A stretch of 64,000 bases of DNA from Archangium violaceum. Its GTDB lineage: Bacteria > Myxococcota > Myxococcia > Myxococcales > Myxococcaceae. Numbering within the stretch: the first letter of the stretch is position 1; each line of letters begins with the position of its first letter. The notes under the pieces are model-generated. The model was not told the DNA's origin, did no database searches, and worked only from the letters and a program-made list of their open reading frames with translations. Location: contig NZ_CP069396.1 in NCBI RefSeq assembly GCF_016887565.1, forward strand, positions 12,506,001-12,570,000, written 5' to 3'. Shown here one piece after another: positions 35,639 to 47,293 of this stretch. The position numbers were made by a program, and so were the translations under genes.

Positions 35639-35800
35639 GAGGGGACCTCGGCCCGTGCAGGATCGCATACTTCAGGCCTGGGCAAAGGAGCGCGCGGGGG
35701 CGCTTCCCCAAAGCGAGCGGCAGCCTCGTGGCTCCGAACGGCGCTTGCTCGGGGACCCTCCGGGTGTCAGCGTCCGCACTCCCGACTGTCCGGAGGTTCC

Positions 35801-36316
35801 ATGGACGACGCGACCTTCCAGCGGCTCGACCAAGAGGTTCGAGCCCTGCAGCGCCCCGACCCCGCGCTCCTGACGTACTACATCCTCATGGCCTGTCTGG
35901 CCCTGCCGGCGCTGCCATTCGCCATCCTGCCGCTCTACTTCCGCTACCACACCCTGCACTTCCGCTTCGACGCGGAGGGCGTCTCGATGGGCCATGGCAT
36001 CCTCTTCCGGCGCGAGATGCACCTCACCTACGCGCGGATGCAGGACATCCACCTGTCCCAGAACCTGCTCGAGCGGTGGCTCGGCATCGGCTCCGTCACC
36101 CTCCAGACCGCGGGAGCGGGAGAAGGGGGCGACATGAAGATCGAGGGGATCCGCAACTTCGAGGCGGTGCGCGACTACCTCTATGCACGCATGCGAGGCG
36201 TCCGCGAGAAGACCCTGGCCCCGAGCGAGACCCGGAGCACCGAGGAGCAACTCCTCACGGAGATCCGCGACTCCCTGCGGGCGGCGGCGACCGCCCTCGA
36301 GGAGGAGTCACGGTGA
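35801..36316 (+). CDS. bPH2-domain membrane protein (YdbS-like)
   Basis: 171 residues. ATG at 35801, CGGAGG 5 bp upstream. One hydrophobic hairpin (about 25-50, YYILMACLALPALPFAILPL) is followed by the bacterial PH domain (FRFDAEGVSMGHGILFRREM, LTYARMQDIHLSQNLLERWL, GSVTLQTAGAG). A C-terminal helical tail follows. It overlaps the next gene by 4 bp (GTGA), so the two PH-domain proteins are translationally coupled, as YdbS/YdbT are. YdbS/YdbT homologues contribute to antimicrobial tolerance in Bacillus; the role here is unproven. Confidence 0.8.
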   Translation: MDDATFQRLDQEVRALQRPDPALLTYYILMACLALPALPFAILPLYFRYHTLHFRFDAEGVSMGHGILFRREMHLTYARMQDIHLSQNLLERWLGIGSVTLQTAGAGEGGDMKIEGIRNFEAVRDYLYARMRGVREKTLAPSETRSTEEQLLTEIRDSLRAAATALEEESR

Positions 36317-37068
36317 TCTCCACCCTCGTCTCCGGCTTGCGGCCGCTGATCGAACCCCTGCTCAAGCTGCGCTTCGAGCCGCCAACGCTTCCAGAGGGAA
36401 GCCAGACCCTGCGCAAGCTCAAGCCTTCCGAGCGCTACCTGGCCTACGCCTATACGAGAGCCATGCTCTCCCATGTCGGGCCGCTCCTCGCCGTCCCCGC
36501 GCTCATGGTCCTGGAGCTCGTGGTGGGCGGCTACGCCACGGTGTCGCCCCTTCTCGCCGCGATCCTCATACTCGCCCTGACCCTCTCATCGCTGGCCGTG
36601 TCCCTGGTCGTGATTCGGCTGGACTGGGAGCTCCGTGACTACCTCATCGGCAGCCGGAGCCTTCGCCTGCGCGAGGGAGCGTTCGTCCAGCGCGAGCTCA
36701 CCCTGAGCTACGCCAACGTGCAGAACGTGGAGGTGACGCAGGGCCCGCTCGAGCGGCTCTTTGGGTTCAAGAGCCTGCGTGTCAGCACGGCGGGAGGCAG
36801 CCGAGGCACGCCAGGAGAGCACGGTGCTCCAAGCCACGAGGCTCGACTCGTGGGCCTGGAGGATGCCGAGGGGGTCCGGGATCTCGTCCTCGGTGCATTG
36901 AGACAGCAGCGCGATGCCGGGCTCGGAGATCCGTCCCACGAGGTCCCGAGGACGCGTACCTGGTTGCTCGAGGAGATCCGCGACGCGGCGGCGGCTCTCC
37001 ATCTCGCCACCGGGAGGCGGACCCGGAGGACGAGCGGAGGTCCCCCGCCAGCCCCGCCGAGCCGTTGA
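36313..37068 (+). CDS. bPH2-domain membrane protein, partner gene
   Basis: 251 residues from the GTG that overlaps the previous stop. Two transmembrane helices (about 55-75 and 80-100) are followed by one PH domain with DYLIGSRSLRLREGAFVQRE, TLSYANVQNVEVTQGPLERL and SLRVSTAGGSRG. Typical YdbT has two or three PH domains, so this is a shorter partner. The tail is Arg/Pro-rich and probably disordered. Confidence 0.8.
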   Translation: MISTLVSGLRPLIEPLLKLRFEPPTLPEGSQTLRKLKPSERYLAYAYTRAMLSHVGPLLAVPALMVLELVVGGYATVSPLLAAILILALTLSSLAVSLVVIRLDWELRDYLIGSRSLRLREGAFVQRELTLSYANVQNVEVTQGPLERLFGFKSLRVSTAGGSRGTPGEHGAPSHEARLVGLEDAEGVRDLVLGALRQQRDAGLGDPSHEVPRTRTWLLEEIRDAAAALHLATGRRTRRTSGGPPPAPPSR

Positions 37069-37107
37069 GACGGATCGGTAAGGCTCGCCGCCATCGAGCA
37101 CCCCGGC

Positions 37108-37136
37108 TTGGCCCCGCCTGCCCCCCGTGCTACATT
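37108..37136 (+). promoter_or_regulatory. promoter for the aro leader
   Basis: TTGGCC (37108-37113), a 17-bp spacer, then TACATT (37131-37136). A start 6-7 bp downstream of the -10 would fall on the A of the leader ATG at 37143, so the leader peptide may be made from a leaderless mRNA. Confidence 0.55.
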
Positions 37137-37142
37137 GAACGT

Positions 37143-37217
37143 ATGCGTTCCGTTCGCTTTGGCTTTACGTCCTTTGGGTTCTCGCACCGCACCGGCGGAG
37201 GAGAGGCGAACGCGTAA
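37143..37217 (+). CDS. phenylalanine leader peptide of the DAHP synthase attenuator
   Basis: 24 codons, ATG at 37143 to TAA at 37215. It opens MRSVRFGFTSFGFSHRTGGG, with four Phe codons (residues 6, 8, 11 and 13) within eight positions. A strong terminator follows at 37242-37273, and the DAHP synthase gene lies beyond it. Low charged tRNA-Phe would stall the ribosome on the Phe codons and permit the antiterminator. No Shine-Dalgarno sequence is visible, consistent with leaderless translation. Confidence 0.8.
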   Translation: MRSVRFGFTSFGFSHRTGGGEANA

Positions 37218-37273
37218 GCGAACCGCGCAGCAACTCTCCCGAAACCGCCGGCTCCGTCCGGCGGTTTTTTTTT
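37192..37273 (+). terminator. transcription attenuator (antiterminator and terminator)
   Basis: Terminator: AAACCGCCGG (37242-37251), loop CTCCGT, CCGGCGGTTT (37258-37267), T run 37265-37273. Competing antiterminator: CCGGCGG and GGAGAG in 37192-37205 can pair with CTCTCC and CCGCCGG in 37234-37251, because the early CCGGCGG copies the terminator's 3' arm. The early strand lies just after the Phe codons, so a stalled ribosome would leave it free. Confidence 0.8.
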
Positions 37274-37323
37274 GCCCGAGTGGCTGCGCGTCACCCCTGC
37301 AACCAGCAAGAGAAGGAGCCCCG

Positions 37324-38442
37324 ATGAAGACCAGGTCCGCCAGCGCGACCGAGGGTTGCTCTGCGCCCGTCGACAAGACCGGCCAGACAGACGACGAGAG
37401 GATCAGCGACGTGACGCCGCTGCCGCCGCCGCAACACCTCATCCGCTTCTTCCCGGTGCGCGGCACGCCGATGGAAGCGCTGATCAGCGACACGCGCCAG
37501 CGCATCCGCGACATCATGACCGGGAAGGACGACCGCCTGCTGGTCATCATGGGCCCGTGCTCGATCCACGACCCACAGGCCGCGCTCGACTATGCGAAGC
37601 GGCTGAAGGTGGAGCGCGAGCGCTACGCCGACACGCTGGAGCTCGTGATGCGTGTGTACTTCGAGAAGCCGCGCACGACGGTCGGCTGGAAGGGGTTGAT
37701 CAACGATCCCTACCTCGACGAGAGCTACCGCATCGACGAAGGCCTGCGCATCGCGCGCCACCTGCTGCTGGACATCAACCGGCTCGGCATGCCGGCGGGC
37801 AGCGAGTTCCTCGACGTGATCTCTCCGCAGTACATCGGCGACCTCATCTCCTGGGGTGCGATCGGCGCCCGCACGACGGAGAGCCAGGTGCACCGCGAGC
37901 TGGCCTCGGGCCTCTCGGCACCGATCGGCTTCAAGAACGGCACGGACGGCAACATCAGGATCGCCACCGATGCCATCCAGGCGGCGGCACGGCCGCACCA
38001 CTTCCTGTCGGTGCACAAGAACGGCCAGGTGGCGATCGTCGAGACCCGGGGCAACACCGACTGTCACCTCATCCTGCGCGGCGGCAAGGTGCCGAACTAC
38101 GACGCCGCCAGCGTCGCGGCCGCCTGCCAGGAGCTCGAAGCGGCAATGCTGCCGGCCACGCTGATGGTGGACTGCTCGCACGCCAACAGCAGCAAGCAGT
38201 ACCAGAAGCAGCTCGACGTCGCGCGCGACATCGCGTCGCAGCTCGCCGGAGGCAGCCGGCGCGTGTTTGGCGTCATGGTGGAGAGCCATCTGGTGGCTGG
38301 CGCGCAGAAGTTCTCGCCCGGCAAGGATGACCCGGCGCGGCTCGAATACGGCAAGAGCATCACCGACGCCTGCCTCGGCTGGGACGACTCCGGCGAGGTG
38401 CTGAAGCTTCTGAGCGACGCGGTGAAGGCGCGACGGCGCTGA
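37324..38442 (+). CDS. aroG: 3-deoxy-7-phosphoheptulonate (DAHP) synthase, class I
   Basis: 372 residues, the normal length of AroG/AroF-type DAHP synthases. The enzyme condenses phosphoenolpyruvate with erythrose 4-phosphate in the first step of the shikimate pathway. Visible motifs: LVIMGPCSIHDPQAALDYAK, RVYFEKPRTTVGWKGLINDP, GAIGARTTESQ, GFKNGTDG, VDCSHANSSK (metal/PEP site) and VFGVMVESHL. ATG at 37324 follows AGAAGGAG. The sequence and its extended N-terminus resemble betaproteobacterial enzymes, and it comes with a Phe attenuator, so gene and regulation were probably acquired together. Feedback type (Phe) is inferred from the attenuator. Confidence 0.93.
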   Translation: MKTRSASATEGCSAPVDKTGQTDDERISDVTPLPPPQHLIRFFPVRGTPMEALISDTRQRIRDIMTGKDDRLLVIMGPCSIHDPQAALDYAKRLKVERERYADTLELVMRVYFEKPRTTVGWKGLINDPYLDESYRIDEGLRIARHLLLDINRLGMPAGSEFLDVISPQYIGDLISWGAIGARTTESQVHRELASGLSAPIGFKNGTDGNIRIATDAIQAAARPHHFLSVHKNGQVAIVETRGNTDCHLILRGGKVPNYDAASVAAACQELEAAMLPATLMVDCSHANSSKQYQKQLDVARDIASQLAGGSRRVFGVMVESHLVAGAQKFSPGKDDPARLEYGKSITDACLGWDDSGEVLKLLSDAVKARRR

Positions 38443-38486
38443 CCGCCCGTGGAAGCACCTGGACTCACACGGGGGTCCCGTTCTTC

Positions 38487-39392
38487 CTACGGCCCACCGC
38501 GCACTTCGCGGGCCGCTGTGTCTGGCAATGCCCCATCCTCCGGCTCGTAGACGAGCTTGCAGCGGTCCAGCCTCGGGCCGCACACCCGATCCAGTTCGCC
38601 GCGCGTGTCACAGCCGGGCCTCTCCGTGCAGGTGTCCGGGAGGAACGCCCAGACGAACTGGAGCACGTTGCCTCCGCGGCCCTCCGGCAGCGCGGCGAGA
38701 AGGTCCTCGCGCCAGGTGTCGAACACACGCGCCAGGTAGACGGTGTTCCCCTCCAGCCGCACGTGCCGCCGGTCCTCCACGAAGCGGCGGACCGCGTCGT
38801 TGAGCTGGGAGTCGAGGAACTCGGGAGCGAAGGGCGCGCCGTCCAGCAGCGGCCCGCCCCGCCTGCCCTGGAACAGGGCGAAGTGGATGCGCGGATCCGC
38901 GAACTCGCGCGGGAGGATGCGGTGCTCCAACGCCCACAGCGTCAGGTGCTGGCCCCCCACTGGCCACGAGCGGCCCCAGAAGAAGGACCCCAGCCACGGG
39001 TCCTCCACGCTGCGCAGTGAGGGGTACTCATCCACCACCGCCTGTAGGACGAGCGCGTTGTACGCATTGAGCCAATAGGCCAGCGCATCCTCGGACCTGG
39101 GAAAGAGGTCCGGCCGCGAGTGCGGCGAGAAGGTGGCCAGCGAGCGCACGAAGGCATCCAACCGCGCGCGCTCGCGGCCGACGGACGCGAAGTCCACGTT
39201 CCCATCCCGCCTCACGTGCCGTAACACCTGCCCATAGCCGCTATAGCTGAAGGGCGTCTCGGCGCTGGGAACGGAGGCGGGCAGCAATCCCCGCACGTGG
39301 AGCACGCCCCCCGTCATGAGCACGGACGAGAGCAGCAAAGCAGCCACCAGGAGCACCACCCGGCGGCGGCGGGCGGGAGCAGGCGTTTCCAT
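38487..39392 (-). CDS. DUF547 family protein, membrane-anchored
   Basis: 301 residues from ATG at 39392; an ATG at 39404 is also possible, and neither has a clear ribosome site. One N-terminal transmembrane helix after an Arg-rich stretch, then the DUF547 domain with FSYSGYGQVLRHVRRDGNVD, YWLNAYNALVLQAVVDEYPS and a Cys-rich C-terminus. DUF547 has an NlpC/P60-like papain fold in some analyses, but its role is unknown. It converges with the DAHP synthase gene. Confidence 0.82.
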   Translation of the reverse strand: METPAPARRRRVVLLVAALLLSSVLMTGGVLHVRGLLPASVPSAETPFSYSGYGQVLRHVRRDGNVDFASVGRERARLDAFVRSLATFSPHSRPDLFPRSEDALAYWLNAYNALVLQAVVDEYPSLRSVEDPWLGSFFWGRSWPVGGQHLTLWALEHRILPREFADPRIHFALFQGRRGGPLLDGAPFAPEFLDSQLNDAVRRFVEDRRHVRLEGNTVYLARVFDTWREDLLAALPEGRGGNVLQFVWAFLPDTCTERPGCDTRGELDRVCGPRLDRCKLVYEPEDGALPDTAAREVRGGP

Positions 39393-39503
39393 GGTGACTG
39401 GCATTGTACCATCAGAACACACGGCGGCGCGCGTGCCGCGAAGGCCATATCGAGTGCTCGGAAGTGAACGCGGGAAAAGCCACCGCGCTGTTGCAAATCT
39501 CCT

Positions 39504-41072
39504 GTGGCGAAGACGAAACTACCCCTCGTGAAAGACATTACCCCGGTCGTGAGGGCGGCCAAGCGCATCGAGACGCTCCTGGAAGCGAAGTTCGGCGCGC
39601 AGGGCCGCGGCCTGCACGAGAAGCTCTCGAGCGTCGAGCGCCAGGTGCCCGCCGAGTTGCACAAGACGATCCGCTACGTCGCCACGGTGCGCAACAAGGT
39701 CGTGCACGAGGACGACTATGAGCTCGACGACGCGCAGGGCTTCCTGCACCAGGCCGAACGCGTGGCGCGGGCACTGGAGGACCTCCAGGTCGAGAAGCTC
39801 CCCACCCGCCTTCCTGGGACGCCCCCGGCGGCCAGCAGCTCTGGCGGCACCCTCATCAAGCTGGCCCTCGCCATGAGCATCGGTGGCTTCATTGCCTACC
39901 AGGCCTACCAAACCCTCAAGCCCCGACGGGAGCCCGCGGACGAGGCTCGAACGCAGACCGCATCGATCGCTCCCGCGACCAGGCAGACCCAGAAGTCTGG
40001 GAAAGACGGAGACGACGCTCAAACGCAGACGGCGGCCAGAAAGACCAAGAGGTCTGGGAAGGACGGGGGCAAGGAACCCACGACCGATGTGCTGTCGGGC
40101 GAAGTCATGGAGCGCTTCGCCAAGGGCGAGCACGTCGCGCTGGACTCGCCCCTGCTCAAGGTCGAGAAGATCACGCTGGCGATGGCCAAGGATGCCTTCG
40201 GTGACCTCAAGCCGCGCATCCAGCTCAAGGTGCGGAACACGTCGACGAAGACCCTCTCGGACGCGACCTACGAGGCGCGTCTGTTCATCGACAGCCAGCC
40301 CCAAGCCGTGATCGATGAACGAGCGTCGACGCTGACGCGAAACGGGCTGTTCCTGTGGTTTGGGGATCAGGGGCTGAAAGCCGGCGAGTCGACCACGGTC
40401 ACCCCCGTCCTGCGCAATGAGCGCGATTGGGTCGTGCCGGACATCCTCAACGCCAGGCGCTGGCAACTCGTCATCCGCAACAACGGCGTGACCGACGGGC
40501 TCAAGAACTCCGTCGACGTGAAGGCCGCCCCGTTCACGGTCCTGCCCACCAGGACCCCCATCTACACCGCGCCGACGCCTTCGGCCTCGCCATCGAAAAC
40601 TGGCGACACCGTGGACTTCGTCGCTGCATTGCGCGATGGCGTGAGCGCCGGCGCGGGGAACCAGGCGCTGTCGCTGCGGAACGTGAAGGTGAAGATGGGG
40701 CACGACAGCTTCGACCGACCCCAGCCGATCATCACGTTGGACATGACCAACATCAGCGAGCGCACCCTCAGCGATGCCGTGCTCCAGGCACAGCTGTACC
40801 TCGATGGCCAGGACAAGCCCGTTCTGAAGACAAGCGAAAAGCTGGGCGGGGGCTTCTCCAGCGCACCAGGCGCCCTCTTCGCCCATTTCGGCGACCGGGG
40901 TCTTGCACCCGCACAGACGCGCAAGGTCGAACTGCGGCCCGACGGCATGTCCAGCACCTGGACGTCGCCCGACGTGCTCAACGCGAAGTCGCTCCTGGTA
41001 CTGCTGCGTGTGGCAGGCACCACCGATGGGCTGGACAAGCCCTATGGCGGCACGGCTCAGCAGCTGCCTTGA
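39504..41072 (+). CDS. HEPN/DUF4145-like protein with TM helix and duplicated C-terminal domain
   Basis: 522 residues from GTG at 39504. The N-terminal 95 residues are helical with RYVATVRNKVVHEDDYELDD, resembling DUF4145/HEPN-type domains. A transmembrane helix lies at about 116-135, then a Lys/Thr/Gln-rich linker. Two homologous beta-rich domains of about 130 residues follow (from about 205 and about 390), each with KMxxxxFxDxxPxIxLxxxN, TLSDA, GLFLWFGDQGLKAGES or GALFAHFGDRGLAPAQT, and ILNA or VLNA. The function is unknown. The HEPN-like part lacks a clear RxxxxH nuclease motif apart from RNKVVH, which fits the pattern and deserves a look. Confidence 0.65.
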   Translation: MAKTKLPLVKDITPVVRAAKRIETLLEAKFGAQGRGLHEKLSSVERQVPAELHKTIRYVATVRNKVVHEDDYELDDAQGFLHQAERVARALEDLQVEKLPTRLPGTPPAASSSGGTLIKLALAMSIGGFIAYQAYQTLKPRREPADEARTQTASIAPATRQTQKSGKDGDDAQTQTAARKTKRSGKDGGKEPTTDVLSGEVMERFAKGEHVALDSPLLKVEKITLAMAKDAFGDLKPRIQLKVRNTSTKTLSDATYEARLFIDSQPQAVIDERASTLTRNGLFLWFGDQGLKAGESTTVTPVLRNERDWVVPDILNARRWQLVIRNNGVTDGLKNSVDVKAAPFTVLPTRTPIYTAPTPSASPSKTGDTVDFVAALRDGVSAGAGNQALSLRNVKVKMGHDSFDRPQPIITLDMTNISERTLSDAVLQAQLYLDGQDKPVLKTSEKLGGGFSSAPGALFAHFGDRGLAPAQTRKVELRPDGMSSTWTSPDVLNAKSLLVLLRVAGTTDGLDKPYGGTAQQLP

Positions 41073-41316
41073 GTCGAACGGCCGGCAGGGCGGCCACCAT
41101 GCCTGGGTGGCCTGAGACGCGCTGAAGAAGGACGACAGCGCGCTGCTGTCCGAGGCGGGCTTCCAGTCGTGCACGAGGGGTCCTCCCGGCCGTGGCCATG
41201 GGGGACACGTCGCGCTGAGCCTCCGAGGACACGGCCCAGCGGACTTCCTGTTCGCTCCGAACCACTTGAGCTTCCCTACCTTCAGCCGAACCCCGGTGGA
41301 ACGCGGATGCCACCCG

Positions 41317-42471
41317 TCAGCGACAGGCATCGGCCACGCCAGCCCCGCACGCCATCTGGAACAGTGTCGCGGCGCGGCGCTCGTCCTTCTCCACTCCCTG
41401 GCCCTCCAGATAGAGCGCACCCAGGGCGGCGCACCCCTTGGCCCACCCGCCCTGGCAGGCCTTCTCATACAGCGAGGCGGCGCGGCGCTCGTCCTTCTCC
41501 ACCCCCTGGCCCAGCAGGTAGAGCTCGGCGAGCAGGTTGCACCCCATGGCATCCCCCTCCTGGCAGGCCTTCTCATACAGCGCGGCGGCGCGGCGCTCGT
41601 CCTTCTCCACTCCCAGGCCTTGTGCGTAGGCCAGACCGAGGCCGCCGCACCCCATGGCATCCCCGCCCTGGCAGGCTTTCGCCCACAGCGAGGCGGCGCG
41701 GTGCTCGTCCTGGTCCACCCCACGGCCCTCCAGGTAGAGCGCCCCGAGCCTGGTGCATCCCCAGGCATTTCCGCCCTGACAGGCCTTCTCATACAGCGAG
41801 GCGGCGCGGCGCATGTCCTTCTCCACCCCACGGCCCTGTGCGTAGAGCCCACCGAGGACGGCGCACCCCTTGGCCACCCCGCCCTGACAGGCCTTCTCAT
41901 ACAGCGAGGCGGCGCGGCGCTCGTCCTTCTCCACACCCTCGCCCTCCAGGTAGAGCTTGGCGAGGAGTTTACACCCCACGGCGTCCTCGCTCTGGCAGGC
42001 CTTCTCATACAGCGAGGCGGCGCGGCGCTCGTCCTTGTCCACCCCACTGCCCTGCTCGTAGAGCATGCCGAGGGCGGCGCACCCCTCGGTCACTCCGCCC
42101 TGGCAGGCTTTCGCCCACAGCGAGGCGGCGCGGCGTATGTCCTCCTCCACACCCTCGCCTTCCAGGTAGAGCCAACCGAGGGCGGCGCACCCCTTGGCCA
42201 CTCCGCCCTGGCATGCCTTCTCCCACAGCGGGGCGGCGCGGCGTATGTCCTTCTCCACACCCTCGCCCGATGCGTAGAGCAGGCCAAGGATGAAGCAGGA
42301 CTTCGCCTCGCCCCCCTCGCAATCCGCCGTGAGGCTCTCCACGGATTGGGCCGACGGGGCCCGCGGTGACGAGACAGCCTGCCCCCCCGTGGCACATCCC
42401 CCCAGCAGCCCGACGACAGCGCACCACAGTCCTGCCATCCACCCTGCTGCGATTCCCCGTGTCCGTGACAT
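41317..42471 (-). CDS. Sel1-repeat lipoprotein
   Basis: 384 residues from ATG at 42471, with GGGGAG 6 bp upstream. Lipoprotein signal LLGGC. Nine complete 36-residue Sel1 (TPR-like) repeats with the pattern CQGGxAxGCxxLGxLYxEG followed by GVEKDERRAASLYEKA, ending in a half repeat. Sel1 proteins are solenoid scaffolds. It lies 77 bp downstream of the TPR-CHAT gene on the same strand, and a deleted Sel1 copy stands upstream of that gene, so Sel1 and CHAT functions appear linked. Confidence 0.88.
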   Translation of the reverse strand: MSRTRGIAAGWMAGLWCAVVGLLGGCATGGQAVSSPRAPSAQSVESLTADCEGGEAKSCFILGLLYASGEGVEKDIRRAAPLWEKACQGGVAKGCAALGWLYLEGEGVEEDIRRAASLWAKACQGGVTEGCAALGMLYEQGSGVDKDERRAASLYEKACQSEDAVGCKLLAKLYLEGEGVEKDERRAASLYEKACQGGVAKGCAVLGGLYAQGRGVEKDMRRAASLYEKACQGGNAWGCTRLGALYLEGRGVDQDEHRAASLWAKACQGGDAMGCGGLGLAYAQGLGVEKDERRAAALYEKACQEGDAMGCNLLAELYLLGQGVEKDERRAASLYEKACQGGWAKGCAALGALYLEGQGVEKDERRAATLFQMACGAGVADACR

Positions 42472-42535
42472 CGCGACTCCCCCTCGTTGAAAGCGCTTCT
42501 GGGACACAGGAGCCCACGAGCGGAGGAGTCATGCA
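42464..42535. repeat. 72-bp duplicated leader, copy 1
   Basis: The Sel1 upstream region, from the start codon back through TTGAAAGCGCTTCTGGGACA, recurs at 46204-46274 at roughly 90% identity with one 1-bp indel. Confidence 0.8.
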
Positions 42536-42548
42536 ACGAAACGGGGAA

Positions 42549-45500
42549 CTAGGGCTTCGGTGACGGCTGGGGAGGCAGCGCCAGGCCGCTCAATGGCGTG
42601 TCCCGGCCCAGGACGATGAAGGGCGCCCAGAAGTGCGGGTGCGGATGACGGCTCCGGAGCGCGCGCATGGCCTCGCGCAGGGCGGTGGCGCGGCCCTGCC
42701 CTTCGAGCAGGTTGCGGTAGTAGGTCTCCATGAGCTGGCTCGTCGTCCCGTCACTCACCTGCCACAGGCTCATGACCACCGTCTCGGCCCCCGCGGCGAT
42801 CAGGGCCCGCCGCAGGCCGTAGACGCCCTGGCCCTTCCTGACCTCCCCGCGCCCCGTGTCGCACGCGGAGAGGACCACCAGTTGCGTGCCCCAGAGGTCG
42901 AGCCCGGCCATCTCCGAGGCCGTGACCAGGGCGCTGTCCAGCCGGGGCCGGGCGGCACCTTGCGCCGGCGCCCGCGCGCCCGCGAGGACGAGCCCCGAGC
43001 GCAGGAGCGCATGGGGGGGGAGGCGGGAGGAAGTGCTCTCGCCGAGCGCGCCGAAATGGCCGACAGCGCGGGAGCCCTTGGACACAGCGGTGTCGTCCTC
43101 GAGGAAGAAGCCGTGGGTGGCCAGGTGGAGGACGCCGGGAGTGGGCAGGTGCAGCAGCCGCTCCTTGGTGGCCGCGGCTCCGAGGAAGAGCTGGGCCTGG
43201 GGAATGAGGCGCTGGATGGCCTCGGCTTCCCGACGGGTGCCGGGCAGCGGAACCCAGGCGCCTTCCGTCAGGTCGGCGCGATGCGTGGCGAAGAAGCGCG
43301 CCACGAGGCCCGAGCGCTCCGTCTGCTCCGTCGTGTCCGCCGGGGCGGCGGGAGGCGCTTGGAGCGGAGCGCGGAAGTCAGGATCGGCCAGGACGACGAC
43401 GGAGGTGGAGGGAGCCACCCCCTGGGCACGAGGCAGCAGTTCCCTGCCCGAGGTGAGGTAGGTGAAGTCGAAGGAGTCGACCAGGAACTGGTGCCCGTCA
43501 TGAAGCGCGGCGAAGGGCACCAGGCTGAGCTGACCCTCGGGCGAGAGGAAGAGGCGGCGAGTCTTTCCGAGCAGCGGCAGCAGGGGCTGGAAGGCGAGCT
43601 GGTAGAGCGCCTGGGCGGGGACCTGGACCTCCGCATCGCGCCGGGCCAGGGCGTTACGCAGGTCCACGGCGGCACGGTCGATGGGCGCGGTGTTGCCCAG
43701 GTCGACCGTGCGGGTCTGTCCATCGGGGAAGAGCACGATGGCCACGTAGTGGCTCTTTCCATAGGCCCGCGGATCTCGCGTGCCGGGCCGGGGGGGCAGG
43801 ATCTTGAATTGTTCGTCCCGGATGAACTCGACGAGGGCGCCGTCGCTGGGGAGGCCCTGGGTGACGCGGTCGACGATCTCGTCGGGACCTGGCAGCGTGG
43901 TCAGCGCGCGCAGAGGCGCGGAGCGCCGGGCCAGCTCCGCTTCGAGGGCGTTGGCCTGGTCCTCGAGATTCTTCAAGTGGTTGGCGGGGGTGGGCGAACC
44001 GGGCCCCGGCAGCGACAGCATGGCGATCTGGGTGCGCAGGCCTCGCAGCCGCTCGAAGGTGTCGCGATCCTCGGTGCTCAGGCTCCGGTGGAGGGTGCGA
44101 GAGGTGTCGGCGAGCTCGGCGACGGAGCGGCCCTTGCGCAGGAGCACGGCGGACAAGGCCAGGCGTCGCACGCGGGCATCGTCTGGCCGGAGGGCGAGGA
44201 GCACGTAGATGTTTTCCTCGCCGGACGGCAGGTGGTCGAGGAAGCTGTCCAGGCGGGTCTCGGCGAATCCGAGCGCCTCCTCGCGCAGTCGCCGCTCGGA
44301 GAGGGCGAGCTCGCGCTGGAGGACGGGAAGCGCCTCGTCCGGGCGATCCTCGCGCAGGAAGCGCCAGGCAAGCGCATCGAGCAGGAGGTCCGAGTAGGGA
44401 TGGTTCTCGCCGAGGGTTGCCTCCCAGATCGGGAGCGCTCGATCGAGAAGGGAATCGGCCCGCTCCCAGAACCCCTGGTCCTGGTAGAGAGAAGCGAGCT
44501 CGATCAGCACTCGAGCGACATCGGGGTGTTTCTCGCCAAGGGTCTCTTCCCCGACGGCGAGTGCGCGCTGGAGGAGCGGCTCGGCCCGTGCGTAATCCCC
44601 CAGACTCATCTCGAAACTGGCGAGGTTGATGAGAGGGCCGACGACGAGCGGATCGGTCTTGCCAAAGGCCGCTTCCGTGATCGCCAGTGCGCGCTGATAG
44701 CGCGCCCGGGCCTCCACGAGCTTCCCTTCCCTGAAGGTGCAGGCGGCGAGACCGATGAGCGGGGGGATGAGACTTGGATGGCTCTGGCCGAGGTTCGATT
44801 CCGCGATGGACAGCGCGCGCTCGAGGAGCGCCCGGGCCTTCGAGAACAGCCCCTGGGACATGTAGATGTTGGCGAGGCCGCTGAGCGCACTGACGAGGTG
44901 AGCGCCCTGGCTGGGGGTCCCTTCCAGAAGGGCGAGCGCGCGCTCGTAGAGCGGCTCGGCCCGAGTGTACATCCCCTGCCGGAAGTAGACGTCAGCGAGC
45001 CTCGTGAGCCAATACGCGACGCTGGGATGCTCCCTGCCGGACAGCTCTTCCCTGAGGGCGAGCGCGCGCTGGAGAAAGGGCTCGGCCTGGGCGGACAACG
45101 CCTGGAGGATGTAGAGATCCGCGAGCTTCTCGAGCGAATCGACGACAGCCTGAGGATCCTGGTCCTGGTTGGCTTCCCGGGCCGCGAGAGAGCGCAGGTA
45201 GAGGGGTTCGGCCCGCGTATACAACCTCTGTTTCTTGTAGATGCCGGCGAGATTGTCAAGCGCTTGGAGGACGTGGGGATGCTCCTTCCCGAGGGTCGCT
45301 TCCCCCAGGGCGAGCGAGCGCAGGTAGAGGGGCTCGGCCTGGGCGTACAACTTCTGGGCCGAGTAGAGGTTGGCGAGATTGTTGAGCAGCGGGGTGAGCC
45401 CGGGGTGGTTCTTGCCCCCCGCTGCTTCCACCACGGCCACCGAGCGCAGGTAGAGAGCCTCGGCCCGGGTGTACAACCCCTGGTCCTGGTAGACGCGGGC

Positions 45501-46118
45501 GAGGTTGCTGAGCAGGCCCGAGATGTTCGGGTCGTCCTTGCCCAAGGCGGCCTCGCCGATGGAGAGCGCGCGCTCGTAGAACGGCTGGGCCTTCGCGTCC
45601 AGCTCCTGGTGCCAGTAGGAACTTCCCAACAGGGTGAGCGTATCGATGAGGGCGGTAGGGTCCTGGTCGCGGCGCGCTTCCTCGATGGCGAGCAGCCGCT
45701 CATAAATGGGCACGGCCCTGTCGTAGGCCCCCTGAGCCCTATAGATGTTGCCGAGCCTCTCGAGCTCCGCGGCGACGAGGCGATGGCTCTTGCCGAACGC
45801 CTTCTCCTGAATGGAGAGAGCGCGTTGGAAGAGGGGCTCGGCTCGGGAGTACAACCCCTGGGCCGTGTGGAAGCGACCGAGGGCATCGAGCACCTCGGCG
45901 ACTCGTGGATTCGTGCTCCCGAGTACCGTCTCCCGGAGTGCCAGCGCATGTTCGGCCCGTGCGATGGCCTCGGCGTACTTGCGTGCCTTGGAGAGCTCCT
46001 CCGCTTCATCCAAGGCGGCCTGCGCTTCCCGCAGTCGAGCCTCTGGCCGTTCACTTCCAGCCGCCGCTCCCGCTGTACAGAAGAGGGCGACCGTCACCCA
46101 CATCAGAAGCTGTCGCAT
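42549..46118 (-). CDS. TPR-CHAT protein (caspase-like protease domain)
   Basis: 1189 residues from ATG at 46118. A signal-like N-terminus (LLMWVTVALFCTAGAAAGS) is followed by about 14 kinesin-light-chain-type TPRs of 42 residues (LYxRAEPLYxRALAI...). A linker leads to the C-terminal CHAT domain (about 860-1175) with the catalytic His in LHLATHGFF (H1002) and Cys in LVVLSACDTG (C1086), both present. CHAT domains are caspase-like proteases or scaffolds; some TPR-CHAT proteins are activated proteases in bacterial defence. An exported form would differ from those, so the location matters. It is flanked by Sel1 sequences on both sides. Confidence 0.88.
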   Translation of the reverse strand: MRQLLMWVTVALFCTAGAAAGSERPEARLREAQAALDEAEELSKARKYAEAIARAEHALALRETVLGSTNPRVAEVLDALGRFHTAQGLYSRAEPLFQRALSIQEKAFGKSHRLVAAELERLGNIYRAQGAYDRAVPIYERLLAIEEARRDQDPTALIDTLTLLGSSYWHQELDAKAQPFYERALSIGEAALGKDDPNISGLLSNLARVYQDQGLYTRAEALYLRSVAVVEAAGGKNHPGLTPLLNNLANLYSAQKLYAQAEPLYLRSLALGEATLGKEHPHVLQALDNLAGIYKKQRLYTRAEPLYLRSLAAREANQDQDPQAVVDSLEKLADLYILQALSAQAEPFLQRALALREELSGREHPSVAYWLTRLADVYFRQGMYTRAEPLYERALALLEGTPSQGAHLVSALSGLANIYMSQGLFSKARALLERALSIAESNLGQSHPSLIPPLIGLAACTFREGKLVEARARYQRALAITEAAFGKTDPLVVGPLINLASFEMSLGDYARAEPLLQRALAVGEETLGEKHPDVARVLIELASLYQDQGFWERADSLLDRALPIWEATLGENHPYSDLLLDALAWRFLREDRPDEALPVLQRELALSERRLREEALGFAETRLDSFLDHLPSGEENIYVLLALRPDDARVRRLALSAVLLRKGRSVAELADTSRTLHRSLSTEDRDTFERLRGLRTQIAMLSLPGPGSPTPANHLKNLEDQANALEAELARRSAPLRALTTLPGPDEIVDRVTQGLPSDGALVEFIRDEQFKILPPRPGTRDPRAYGKSHYVAIVLFPDGQTRTVDLGNTAPIDRAAVDLRNALARRDAEVQVPAQALYQLAFQPLLPLLGKTRRLFLSPEGQLSLVPFAALHDGHQFLVDSFDFTYLTSGRELLPRAQGVAPSTSVVVLADPDFRAPLQAPPAAPADTTEQTERSGLVARFFATHRADLTEGAWVPLPGTRREAEAIQRLIPQAQLFLGAAATKERLLHLPTPGVLHLATHGFFLEDDTAVSKGSRAVGHFGALGESTSSRLPPHALLRSGLVLAGARAPAQGAARPRLDSALVTASEMAGLDLWGTQLVVLSACDTGRGEVRKGQGVYGLRRALIAAGAETVVMSLWQVSDGTTSQLMETYYRNLLEGQGRATALREAMRALRSRHPHPHFWAPFIVLGRDTPLSGLALPPQPSPKP

Positions 46119-46122
46119 GGCG

Positions 46123-46211
46123 TCAGTGACAGGCCTCGGCCACCCCGCCCGCGCAGGCCTTCTCGAACAGAACGGCGGCGCGGCGCTCGTCCTTGTCCAC
46201 TCCCGTGACAT
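46123..46211 (-). pseudogene. Sel1-repeat gene relic made by internal deletion
   Basis: The start codon and first codons (ATGTCACGG) match those of the intact Sel1 lipoprotein gene, but the next base joins directly into its last repeat: GVDKDERRAAVLFEKACAGG then VAEACH and TGA. About 1.1 kb of the expected repeats and signal are missing, and the junction leaves the start out of frame. Its upstream region is the duplicated leader at 46204-46274. The TPR-CHAT start follows its stop by 4 bp, so the relic probably still supplies the promoter. Confidence 0.7.
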
Positions 46212-46274
46212 CGCGAACCCCCTTGTTGAAAGCGCTTCTGGGACACAGGAGCCCACGAGCGGAAAAGTCATGCA
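46204..46274. repeat. 72-bp duplicated leader, copy 2
   Basis: Copy of 42464-42535 in front of the Sel1 relic. In both copies a frame MTxPLVGSCVPEALSTRG is kept, but coding use is doubtful. Confidence 0.75.
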
Positions 46275-46343
46275 GGAAAGCTGCCTTCTCAGGCTCCGCC
46301 CTCACCGCTGTCTCCGCCGGCCCGCTCGCCTCTTGGCCGGCGC

Positions 46344-47027
46344 TCAGTTCATGTCCCAGCGCGCGGCGATCTCCTCGCACGCCAGGTGCACGTCTCCCAA
46401 CCGCCGCCGCTGGGCCTTGGGCGCCACGAACACCTTGCCGGCGAACACGTCGAAGACGCGCACCAGCCGGTGGTCCACCTCGCCCTGCTGCTTCAGGTTC
46501 TGCTCGGCGAAGAGCTGGAGCACCGTGGCGATGTACTGGCCGGAGGCCTCGTCCAGAGGCGTGTGCTTGGAGAAGTAGAGCTTGAGCAGCCCCGAGCGCA
46601 TCATCCCGTGGCGGTCCATGCTGCGCAGGAGCAGCTCCGGGCGCACGTTGATGGACACCCCCGCGAGCGCCAGCGGAGGCAGCCCCTCGTCCGCGGGGCT
46701 GGCCACCGCGTTCGTCAGCGCCAGCTCGCCCGAGGCCTTGAGGAAGTGCTGGAGGGCCTCGGCGCACAGGGCGAGCCGGTGGGCGTCGAAGTCCGACTCG
46801 GGGATGGCGTTGAGCAGGCGGTGCTGGTGGTAGCGGAGGATGGCCTCGTCCCGGCCGTCGCAGAGGAACTCGACGATGGCCTGGGCGGCCTCGGGGTAGC
46901 GCAGGTACTTGGGGTCACACGGGTGCTTCTGCGCGTGGATGATGCGCTTGCGCAGCGCGGGACGCGCGGTGAGGTACTGGCCGAGCTTGTTGACCGAGAC
47001 GCACGGATTCTCACGGAAATCAGCCAC
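46344..47027 (-). CDS. conserved hypothetical protein
   Basis: 227 residues from GTG at 47027, preceded by AAGGAAGGG; an ATG at 47057 without a ribosome site is the alternative. The opening SVNKLGQYLTARPALRKRII, with QKHPCDPKYLRYPEAAQAIV, is a recognisable conserved block seen in uncharacterised bacterial proteins, followed by a helical body and a beta-containing C-terminus (GLPPLALAGVSINVRPELLL, RVFDVFAGKVF). No catalytic motif is obvious. I have no function to offer. The gene lies just upstream of the Sel1/TPR-CHAT cluster on the same strand. Confidence 0.7.
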   Translation of the reverse strand: MADFRENPCVSVNKLGQYLTARPALRKRIIHAQKHPCDPKYLRYPEAAQAIVEFLCDGRDEAILRYHQHRLLNAIPESDFDAHRLALCAEALQHFLKASGELALTNAVASPADEGLPPLALAGVSINVRPELLLRSMDRHGMMRSGLLKLYFSKHTPLDEASGQYIATVLQLFAEQNLKQQGEVDHRLVRVFDVFAGKVFVAPKAQRRRLGDVHLACEEIAARWDMN

Positions 47028-47293
47028 GGAAGACCCTTCCTTACCGGTGTTGGGCATGAAGCAACACTACCGGTCGGGTCTGACATGTCCGGCCCGGAGG
47101 AAGGCCCGGAGGCGCTCCCTGGCGCAGAGGAGAAGTGAGTGGGAAACCCACCCGCATGGGTCGGGCACGAACCTGCCCGAACGCGGGAGCCCCAGCCGTC
47201 GCTGAGCTCCGAGACGGTGAGCATGAGGGCGAACTCCAGGTAGAAGCCGGCCATCACCCGGGGCAAGCCCACTCACCCCATGAATCGAGGTCG

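Follow-up and report, generated by a model that had tools for sequence, protein, structure and literature searches.

A probable leaderless phenylalanine attenuator of aroG in Archangium violaceum and its likely acquisition from Burkholderiales

In the 64-kb stretch of Archangium violaceum DNA analyzed here (referred to as the window), aroG is preceded by a compact leader that we interpret as a ribosome-controlled Phe attenuator, likely leaderless, and likely transferred together with aroG from Burkholderiales. Judging from sequence comparison, we give this reading as a whole a probability of roughly 0.85. The working principle is that of known, classic Phe attenuation. As far as the literature searched goes, two aspects are new, namely an apparently leaderless Phe leader that is conserved before aroG in Burkholderiales, and the probable transfer of this leader with aroG into another phylum.

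The leader ORF (37143-37217; all features below are likewise on the + strand) consists of 24 codons encoding MRSVRFGFTSFGFSHRTGGGEANA, with its stop codon at 37215. Sequence and translation confirmed the four Phe codons in eight positions noted in a preliminary description of this DNA; they are codons 6, 8, 11, and 13 (37158-37181), the putative control codons. Segment 1 (TTCTC, 37179-37183) can pair with 37201-37205 within segment 2 (CCGGCGG A GGAGAGG, 37192-37206), while segment 3 (CTCTCC..CCGCCGG, 37234-37251) is both the antiterminator partner of segment 2 and the 5' arm of an intrinsic terminator formed by segments 3 and 4 (37241-37273). The terminator, previously described by its nine T, has an 11-pair stem (37241-37268), and all nine T were located, at 37265-37273; its 3' arm (37258-37264) is indeed repeated at 37192-37198 as CCGGCGG, the proposed antiterminator strand. 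Upstream of the leader is an extended -10 promoter element, TGC-TACATT (37128-37136), in which TACATT (37131-37136) ends 6 nt ahead of the leader ATG. As had been noted, no ribosome site or other Shine-Dalgarno (SD)-like sequence precedes this ATG, in contrast to the AAGGAG (37313-37318) ahead of the aroG ATG at 37324.

These features are unlike those of any other small ORF in the window. Among 765 distinct stops of small ORFs with 10-45 codons (397 on the + strand and 368 on the - strand), the leader alone has at least four Phe within eight codons, and it alone is followed within 90 nt by a terminator-like hairpin. It combines clustered codons for the end product, an intrinsic terminator before aroG, and an alternative pairing that is mutually exclusive with the terminator. 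The preliminary description had suggested folding the leader as a check. Taken as a whole, the leader folds only slightly better than shuffled sequences (z -1.41; 18 of 200 shuffles as good), an unremarkable result.

The downstream gene (37324-38442) encodes an AroFGH-type DAHP synthase (TIGR00034, 529.3 bits against a cut-off of 173.2). The protein does not reach the NF006723 AroG equivalog (544.5 bits vs. a cut-off of 568), and the name aroG rests on its closest match and on the leader rather than on that family. Its nearest PDB chains include the Phe-sensitive DAHP synthase 5cks (465.6 bits), with Tyr-sensitive chains scoring lower (394 bits).

The proposed attenuator would make aroG expression respond to charged tRNA-Phe. 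Transcription from the extended -10 would start at the leader AUG or at most some 2 nt away from it, as judged by the spacing; with such an RNA start, ribosomes would load on the RNA 5' end without an SD, and the leader peptide is probably translated from a 5'-terminal AUG. When Phe is scarce, a ribosome would stall at codon 6, 8, 11, or 13 and leave segment 2 (from 37192) exposed, so that it could pair with segment 3 ahead of the synthesis of segment 4, which would prevent the terminator from forming and allow aroG to be transcribed. When Phe is plentiful, the ribosome would run over segment 2 towards the stop codon; after its release, segment 2 may be held by pairing with segment 1, so that segments 3 and 4 would pair and transcription would end after 37268.

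To what extent this arrangement is shared was examined in 80 aroG loci, mostly from Burkholderiales and one from Solimonas. An ATG-started, Phe-rich leader lies upstream of aroG in 70 of the 80, and 69 of these 70 leaders retain a GGCGGT core ahead of the T run. This conservation supports the earlier suggestion that aroG is subject to Phe attenuation. The ten loci without a leader by our criterion are L076, L077, L089, L091, L094, L097, L098, L099, L101, and L102. An RNA model built from 59 leaders, which begins at the ATG and excludes the promoter, subsequently detected a leader in six of nine of the corresponding genomes (L091, at a contig end, was left out), with the match for L097 and L101 sitting at another aroG copy. 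The model matches at least 100 of 399 Burkholderiales genomes, which is a lower bound because of Infernal's stricter filters, and 7 of 369 genomes drawn from the class, three of which were already counted. Where the gene downstream of a match was examined, it was aroG in 35/35, 71/72 (the exception being L235), and 4/4 cases; seven of the 72 matches lack an ATG at the model start. In four Polynucleobacter genomes (L094, L098, L099, and L102), aroG is present without a match to the leader model, which we read from the sequences as loss of the attenuator. The Solimonas record (L076/L134; Nevskiaceae by NCBI) has an aroG resembling those of Burkholderiales (78%), preceded by a leader of the family described here, and represents either another transfer or a misassigned record.

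None of the Rfam attenuator families, including the Phe leader, is among the five weak matches to the window at E up to 10, and no Rfam match in 14 aroG loci reaches its gathering score. One of the weak matches raised the idea that the Burkholderia sRNA ncS54 is this aroG attenuator. We dropped it, as the match scores 16.7 bits vs. a gathering score of 43, none of the 14 loci gave a match at the gathering score, and the accessible portion of PMC5688073 mentions neither aroG nor leader peptides.

An alignment of 70 leaders, comprising 69 loci and the window (L046 was excluded since it has no terminator core), was used to evaluate the pairing scheme. Each leader has three to six Phe codons upstream of segment 2. 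All but one of the 70 retain the GGCG of segment 2, which is read in frame 0 in 59 leaders and in frame 2 in 10; the change of frame replaces Gly-Gly with Ala-type codons and leaves the RNA motif unchanged. Since GGCG is kept in two reading frames, selection likely acts on the RNA. By an alignment-based count in 69 leaders, GGCG lies 12 nt beyond the last Phe codon in 30 and 15 nt beyond it in 23. Given the ribosome footprint, this is about where the front edge of a stalled ribosome would lie.

The three pairings are differently supported. Standard pairs make up 94.0% of 1:2, with covariation exceeding that of all 500 shuffles (0/500 as high), in shuffles that ignore the relatedness of the leaders; the same pairing slid by +2 is almost as good, with 91.1% paired. 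In the 2:3 core, 87.1% of the pairs are standard and no covariation beyond the shuffles was detected (136/500 as high), partly because three segments must match. Standard pairs account for 91.6% of 3:4, and a hairpin finder returned an ungapped hairpin in 62 of the 70 leaders, seven of the remainder being bulged stems.

The 2:3 antiterminator of the window (37191-37257) folds with -29.0 kcal/mol. We also folded only the RNA ahead of a masking ribosome and before segment 4 is made, in 69 leaders (L039, which has no GGCG, was excluded). Under these conditions, the probability of 2:3 pairing is above 0.5 in 66 of the 69 leaders with the ribosome at the last Phe codon and in 64 with it at the first, as opposed to 28 without a ribosome. 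With the ribosome at the stop codon it is above 0.5 in none, which is true by construction because segment 2 is then upstream of the ribosome edge of the mask. When the full RNA is considered at equilibrium, the terminator wins at every ribosome position, stalled positions included (mean P(3:4) 0.91-0.95; 0.996 in the window even with a stalled ribosome). In this folding model, therefore, the choice would have to be kinetic, with 2:3 forming first and persisting.

Whether the attenuator is still at work in A. violaceum is a separate question, and a silent relic, in which the enzyme is kept while the leader no longer responds to Phe, is the alternative that we take most seriously, albeit as an unlikely one. 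A second DAHP synthase, 49% identical to AroG, is encoded in the host genome, and the window peptide has lost all eight neighbors of the Phe region that donors commonly have (Tyr, Trp). Yet every element of the leader is intact. Against a separate genome of the same genus, G045, the stretch from the -10 to the terminator is identical at 144 of 146 positions, both differences lying in the terminator loop, while the 59 nt upstream of it are strongly changed and carry an indel. The aroG genes of the two differ by pS 0.033 and pN 0.006, a pattern that fits a functional enzyme; the conservation of the leader is weak evidence of selection because the divergence is small.

The leaderless start is suggested by the position of the -10 relative to the ATG. 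Of the 70 aligned leaders, the window included, 14 have a TGnTANNNT that ends 6 nt ahead of the ATG, 37 have it at 7 nt, 17 at 8 nt, and 1 at 9 nt; the motif occurs zero times or once in each of the seven other 5-nt bins of the 45 nt upstream. The TG is present in all 69 leaders that have the -10, and SD-like 4-mers are found in none of the 70. From the conserved spacing of the -10 in 69 of 70 leaders and the absence of an SD, we infer that the RNA starts at or next to the leader AUG, nearly constantly so in the subtype of the window, and the earlier proposal of a leaderless leader peptide finds support in the conservation among Burkholderiales. The -35 element proposed with it (TTGGCC) did not find support, as a simple sigma-70 scan gave no promoter at the window leader, whose -10 departs from the E. 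coli consensus, and the 69 relatives show no enrichment of any -35 spacing.

In the wider family, the arrangement is more variable. Among 96 leaders outside the model, TANNNT ends 5-9 nt before the ATG in 55 (37 of them with the extended form), with one to eight occurrences in each of the other seven bins, and SD-like 4-mers are found in six. A relaxed extended motif is present in 68 of the 70 leaders and 41 of the 96. Left out of the 96 were L132, L141, L143, and L153 (model members or fetched earlier), L149 (at the end of a contig), L167, L215, and L235 (match lacking a usable leader), and L195, L213, and L234 (no ATG). These comparisons suggest that a leaderless start is common in the wider family and not universal; as 41 of the 96 leaders lack the strict TANNNT at 5-9 nt, it does not appear to be required by the attenuation mechanism. 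A second leader subtype, M[ST]AKFYFYFF... (L136, L137, L154, L158, L163, L181, and L201, Cupriavidus among them), has neither a -10 beside the ATG nor an evident SD, and its transcripts may begin further upstream.

The same could be imagined for the window, with Phe attenuation operating from a promoter further upstream, a short 5' UTR, and TACATT being incidental. Such a start would agree with the lack of a consensus promoter in the simple scan and with the 41 leaders mentioned above, some of which have a possible -10 further upstream. We find it quite improbable, however, in view of the near-invariant 6-9 nt position of TGnTANNNT among the 70 leaders of the window's own subtype (69 have it), its scarcity in the control bins, and the lack of SD-like 4-mers in all 70. 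Further, compared with window positions 37101-37107, G045 (L003/L129) carries roughly 70-80 additional bp immediately ahead of the -35 region, with its -10 and leader unchanged.

We next consider where the leader came from. The preliminary description regarded Phe attenuation as unexpected in a myxobacterium. It is indeed rare, with the RNA model matching 2 of 195 genomes of the phylum, but the surprise likely has a simple explanation in that aroG came from Burkholderiales with its leader. The best match to the window AroG in named genomes is that of Rhizobacter sp. Root1238 (84% identity). Among 145 genomes of its own order, the closest are G045 (99%) and then proteins with 63-64% identity or less; of six genomes of the genus, only G045 has a close aroG relative. 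An AroG tree built from 48 selected rows (28 loci from the set of 80, 18 other loci of the order, the window, and G045) places the window and G045 among the Burkholderiales rows and apart from the order's other rows. The fork joining the window and Burkholderiales has a support of 92 (not starred) and that joining the window and G045 has 100; the tree does not single out one donor. Contamination is unlikely since the window's genome is a single contig of 13.2 Mb. Taken from these sequences, the leader and aroG probably did not arise in place. Promoter, leader, terminator, and aroG would have been acquired as a unit from a Burkholderiales donor by the common ancestor of the window's genome and G045.

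That the leader arose independently in front of a vertically inherited aroG, as might be argued from the portion of PMC2965389 holding that short leader peptides can arise repeatedly, is scarcely credible in view of this tree, the restriction of close relatives within the genus to G045, the match of leader, terminator, and -10 to the Burkholderiales pattern (E 2.0e-18 for the window leader against the RNA model), and the 29 other aroG loci of the order that were scanned, the second copy included, none of which has, within 500 nt, a small ORF rich in Phe, Trp, or Tyr.

Classic enterobacterial attenuators of pheA and pheST have a Phe-rich leader peptide, a mutually exclusive antiterminator and terminator, and a T run. 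The system described here resembles them in all of these features and in having an aromatic pathway target, and differs in that the target is aroG, the leader has no SD and adjoins the promoter, and no Rfam family matches. Both pheA and pheST are named as attenuator-regulated in the accessible part of PMC1262725, which also cites Vitreschak et al. (2004) for conserved complementary triples in attenuators; the core CCGGCGG / CCGCCGG / CCGGCGG, complementary and repeated three ways, appears to be such a triple.

Leaderless attenuator peptides also have precedents. According to the available text of PMC7298713, the trpL attenuator RNA of Sinorhizobium meliloti (rnTrpL) has the ATG of its leader ORF as its very 5' end. 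With the RNA start proposed here, the aroG leader would have a leaderless leader peptide in common with it; the S. meliloti system differs in responding to tryptophan, in controlling trpE(G), and in belonging to the Alphaproteobacteria. Similarly, leaderless polycysteine short ORFs in mycobacteria act as attenuators (Canestrari et al., 2020, as summarized in the excerpt of PMC9031893). The aroG leader would share with them a leaderless short ORF, clustered codons of one amino acid, and an attenuator role; they differ in the amino acid, cysteine, and the phylum, Actinobacteria. The openly accessible literature that we searched describes no Phe attenuator of aroG for Burkholderiales or myxobacteria, and the 2004 proteobacterial survey may list part of this family.

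More tentatively, and at somewhat less than even odds, the Burkholderiales and window data may be read jointly: aroG of Burkholderiales would carry a widespread, mostly leaderless family of Phe attenuators, of which the window presents an example of portable control after transfer. RNA polymerase would hand a 5'-terminal AUG straight to a 70S ribosome, coupling transcription and translation from the first codon. As neither an SD nor a trans-acting regulator would be needed, the unit would be self-contained. A conserved leaderless attenuator would then be tied to a transfer of gene and RNA control between phyla that is dated by sequence, and the findings point to a regulatory RNA family unmatched by Rfam 15. 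The system may serve as a clear test of whether attenuation uses leaderless initiation on purpose, and of whether cis-acting RNA control takes effect immediately after arrival in a foreign host.

The surroundings of the transferred unit differ among genomes of the genus. A simple empty site was sought in G043, G044, and G047, where only the gene at 46336-47182 aligned, at unrelated surroundings, so that the insertion boundaries could not be fixed. In G045, a stretch matching window 46336-47182 follows about 20 bp after aroG. The ~7.9 kb in between in the window (38453-46335), which encode a DUF547 protein, an uncharacterized 522-aa ORF, a Sel1-repeat protein, and more, are either additional in the window or lacking from G045. 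The gene upstream of the leader (35728-37068), which has a bPH_2 domain, has a full-length match only in G045 among the six genomes of the genus; in the others, only about 200 bp align, at 72-75%.
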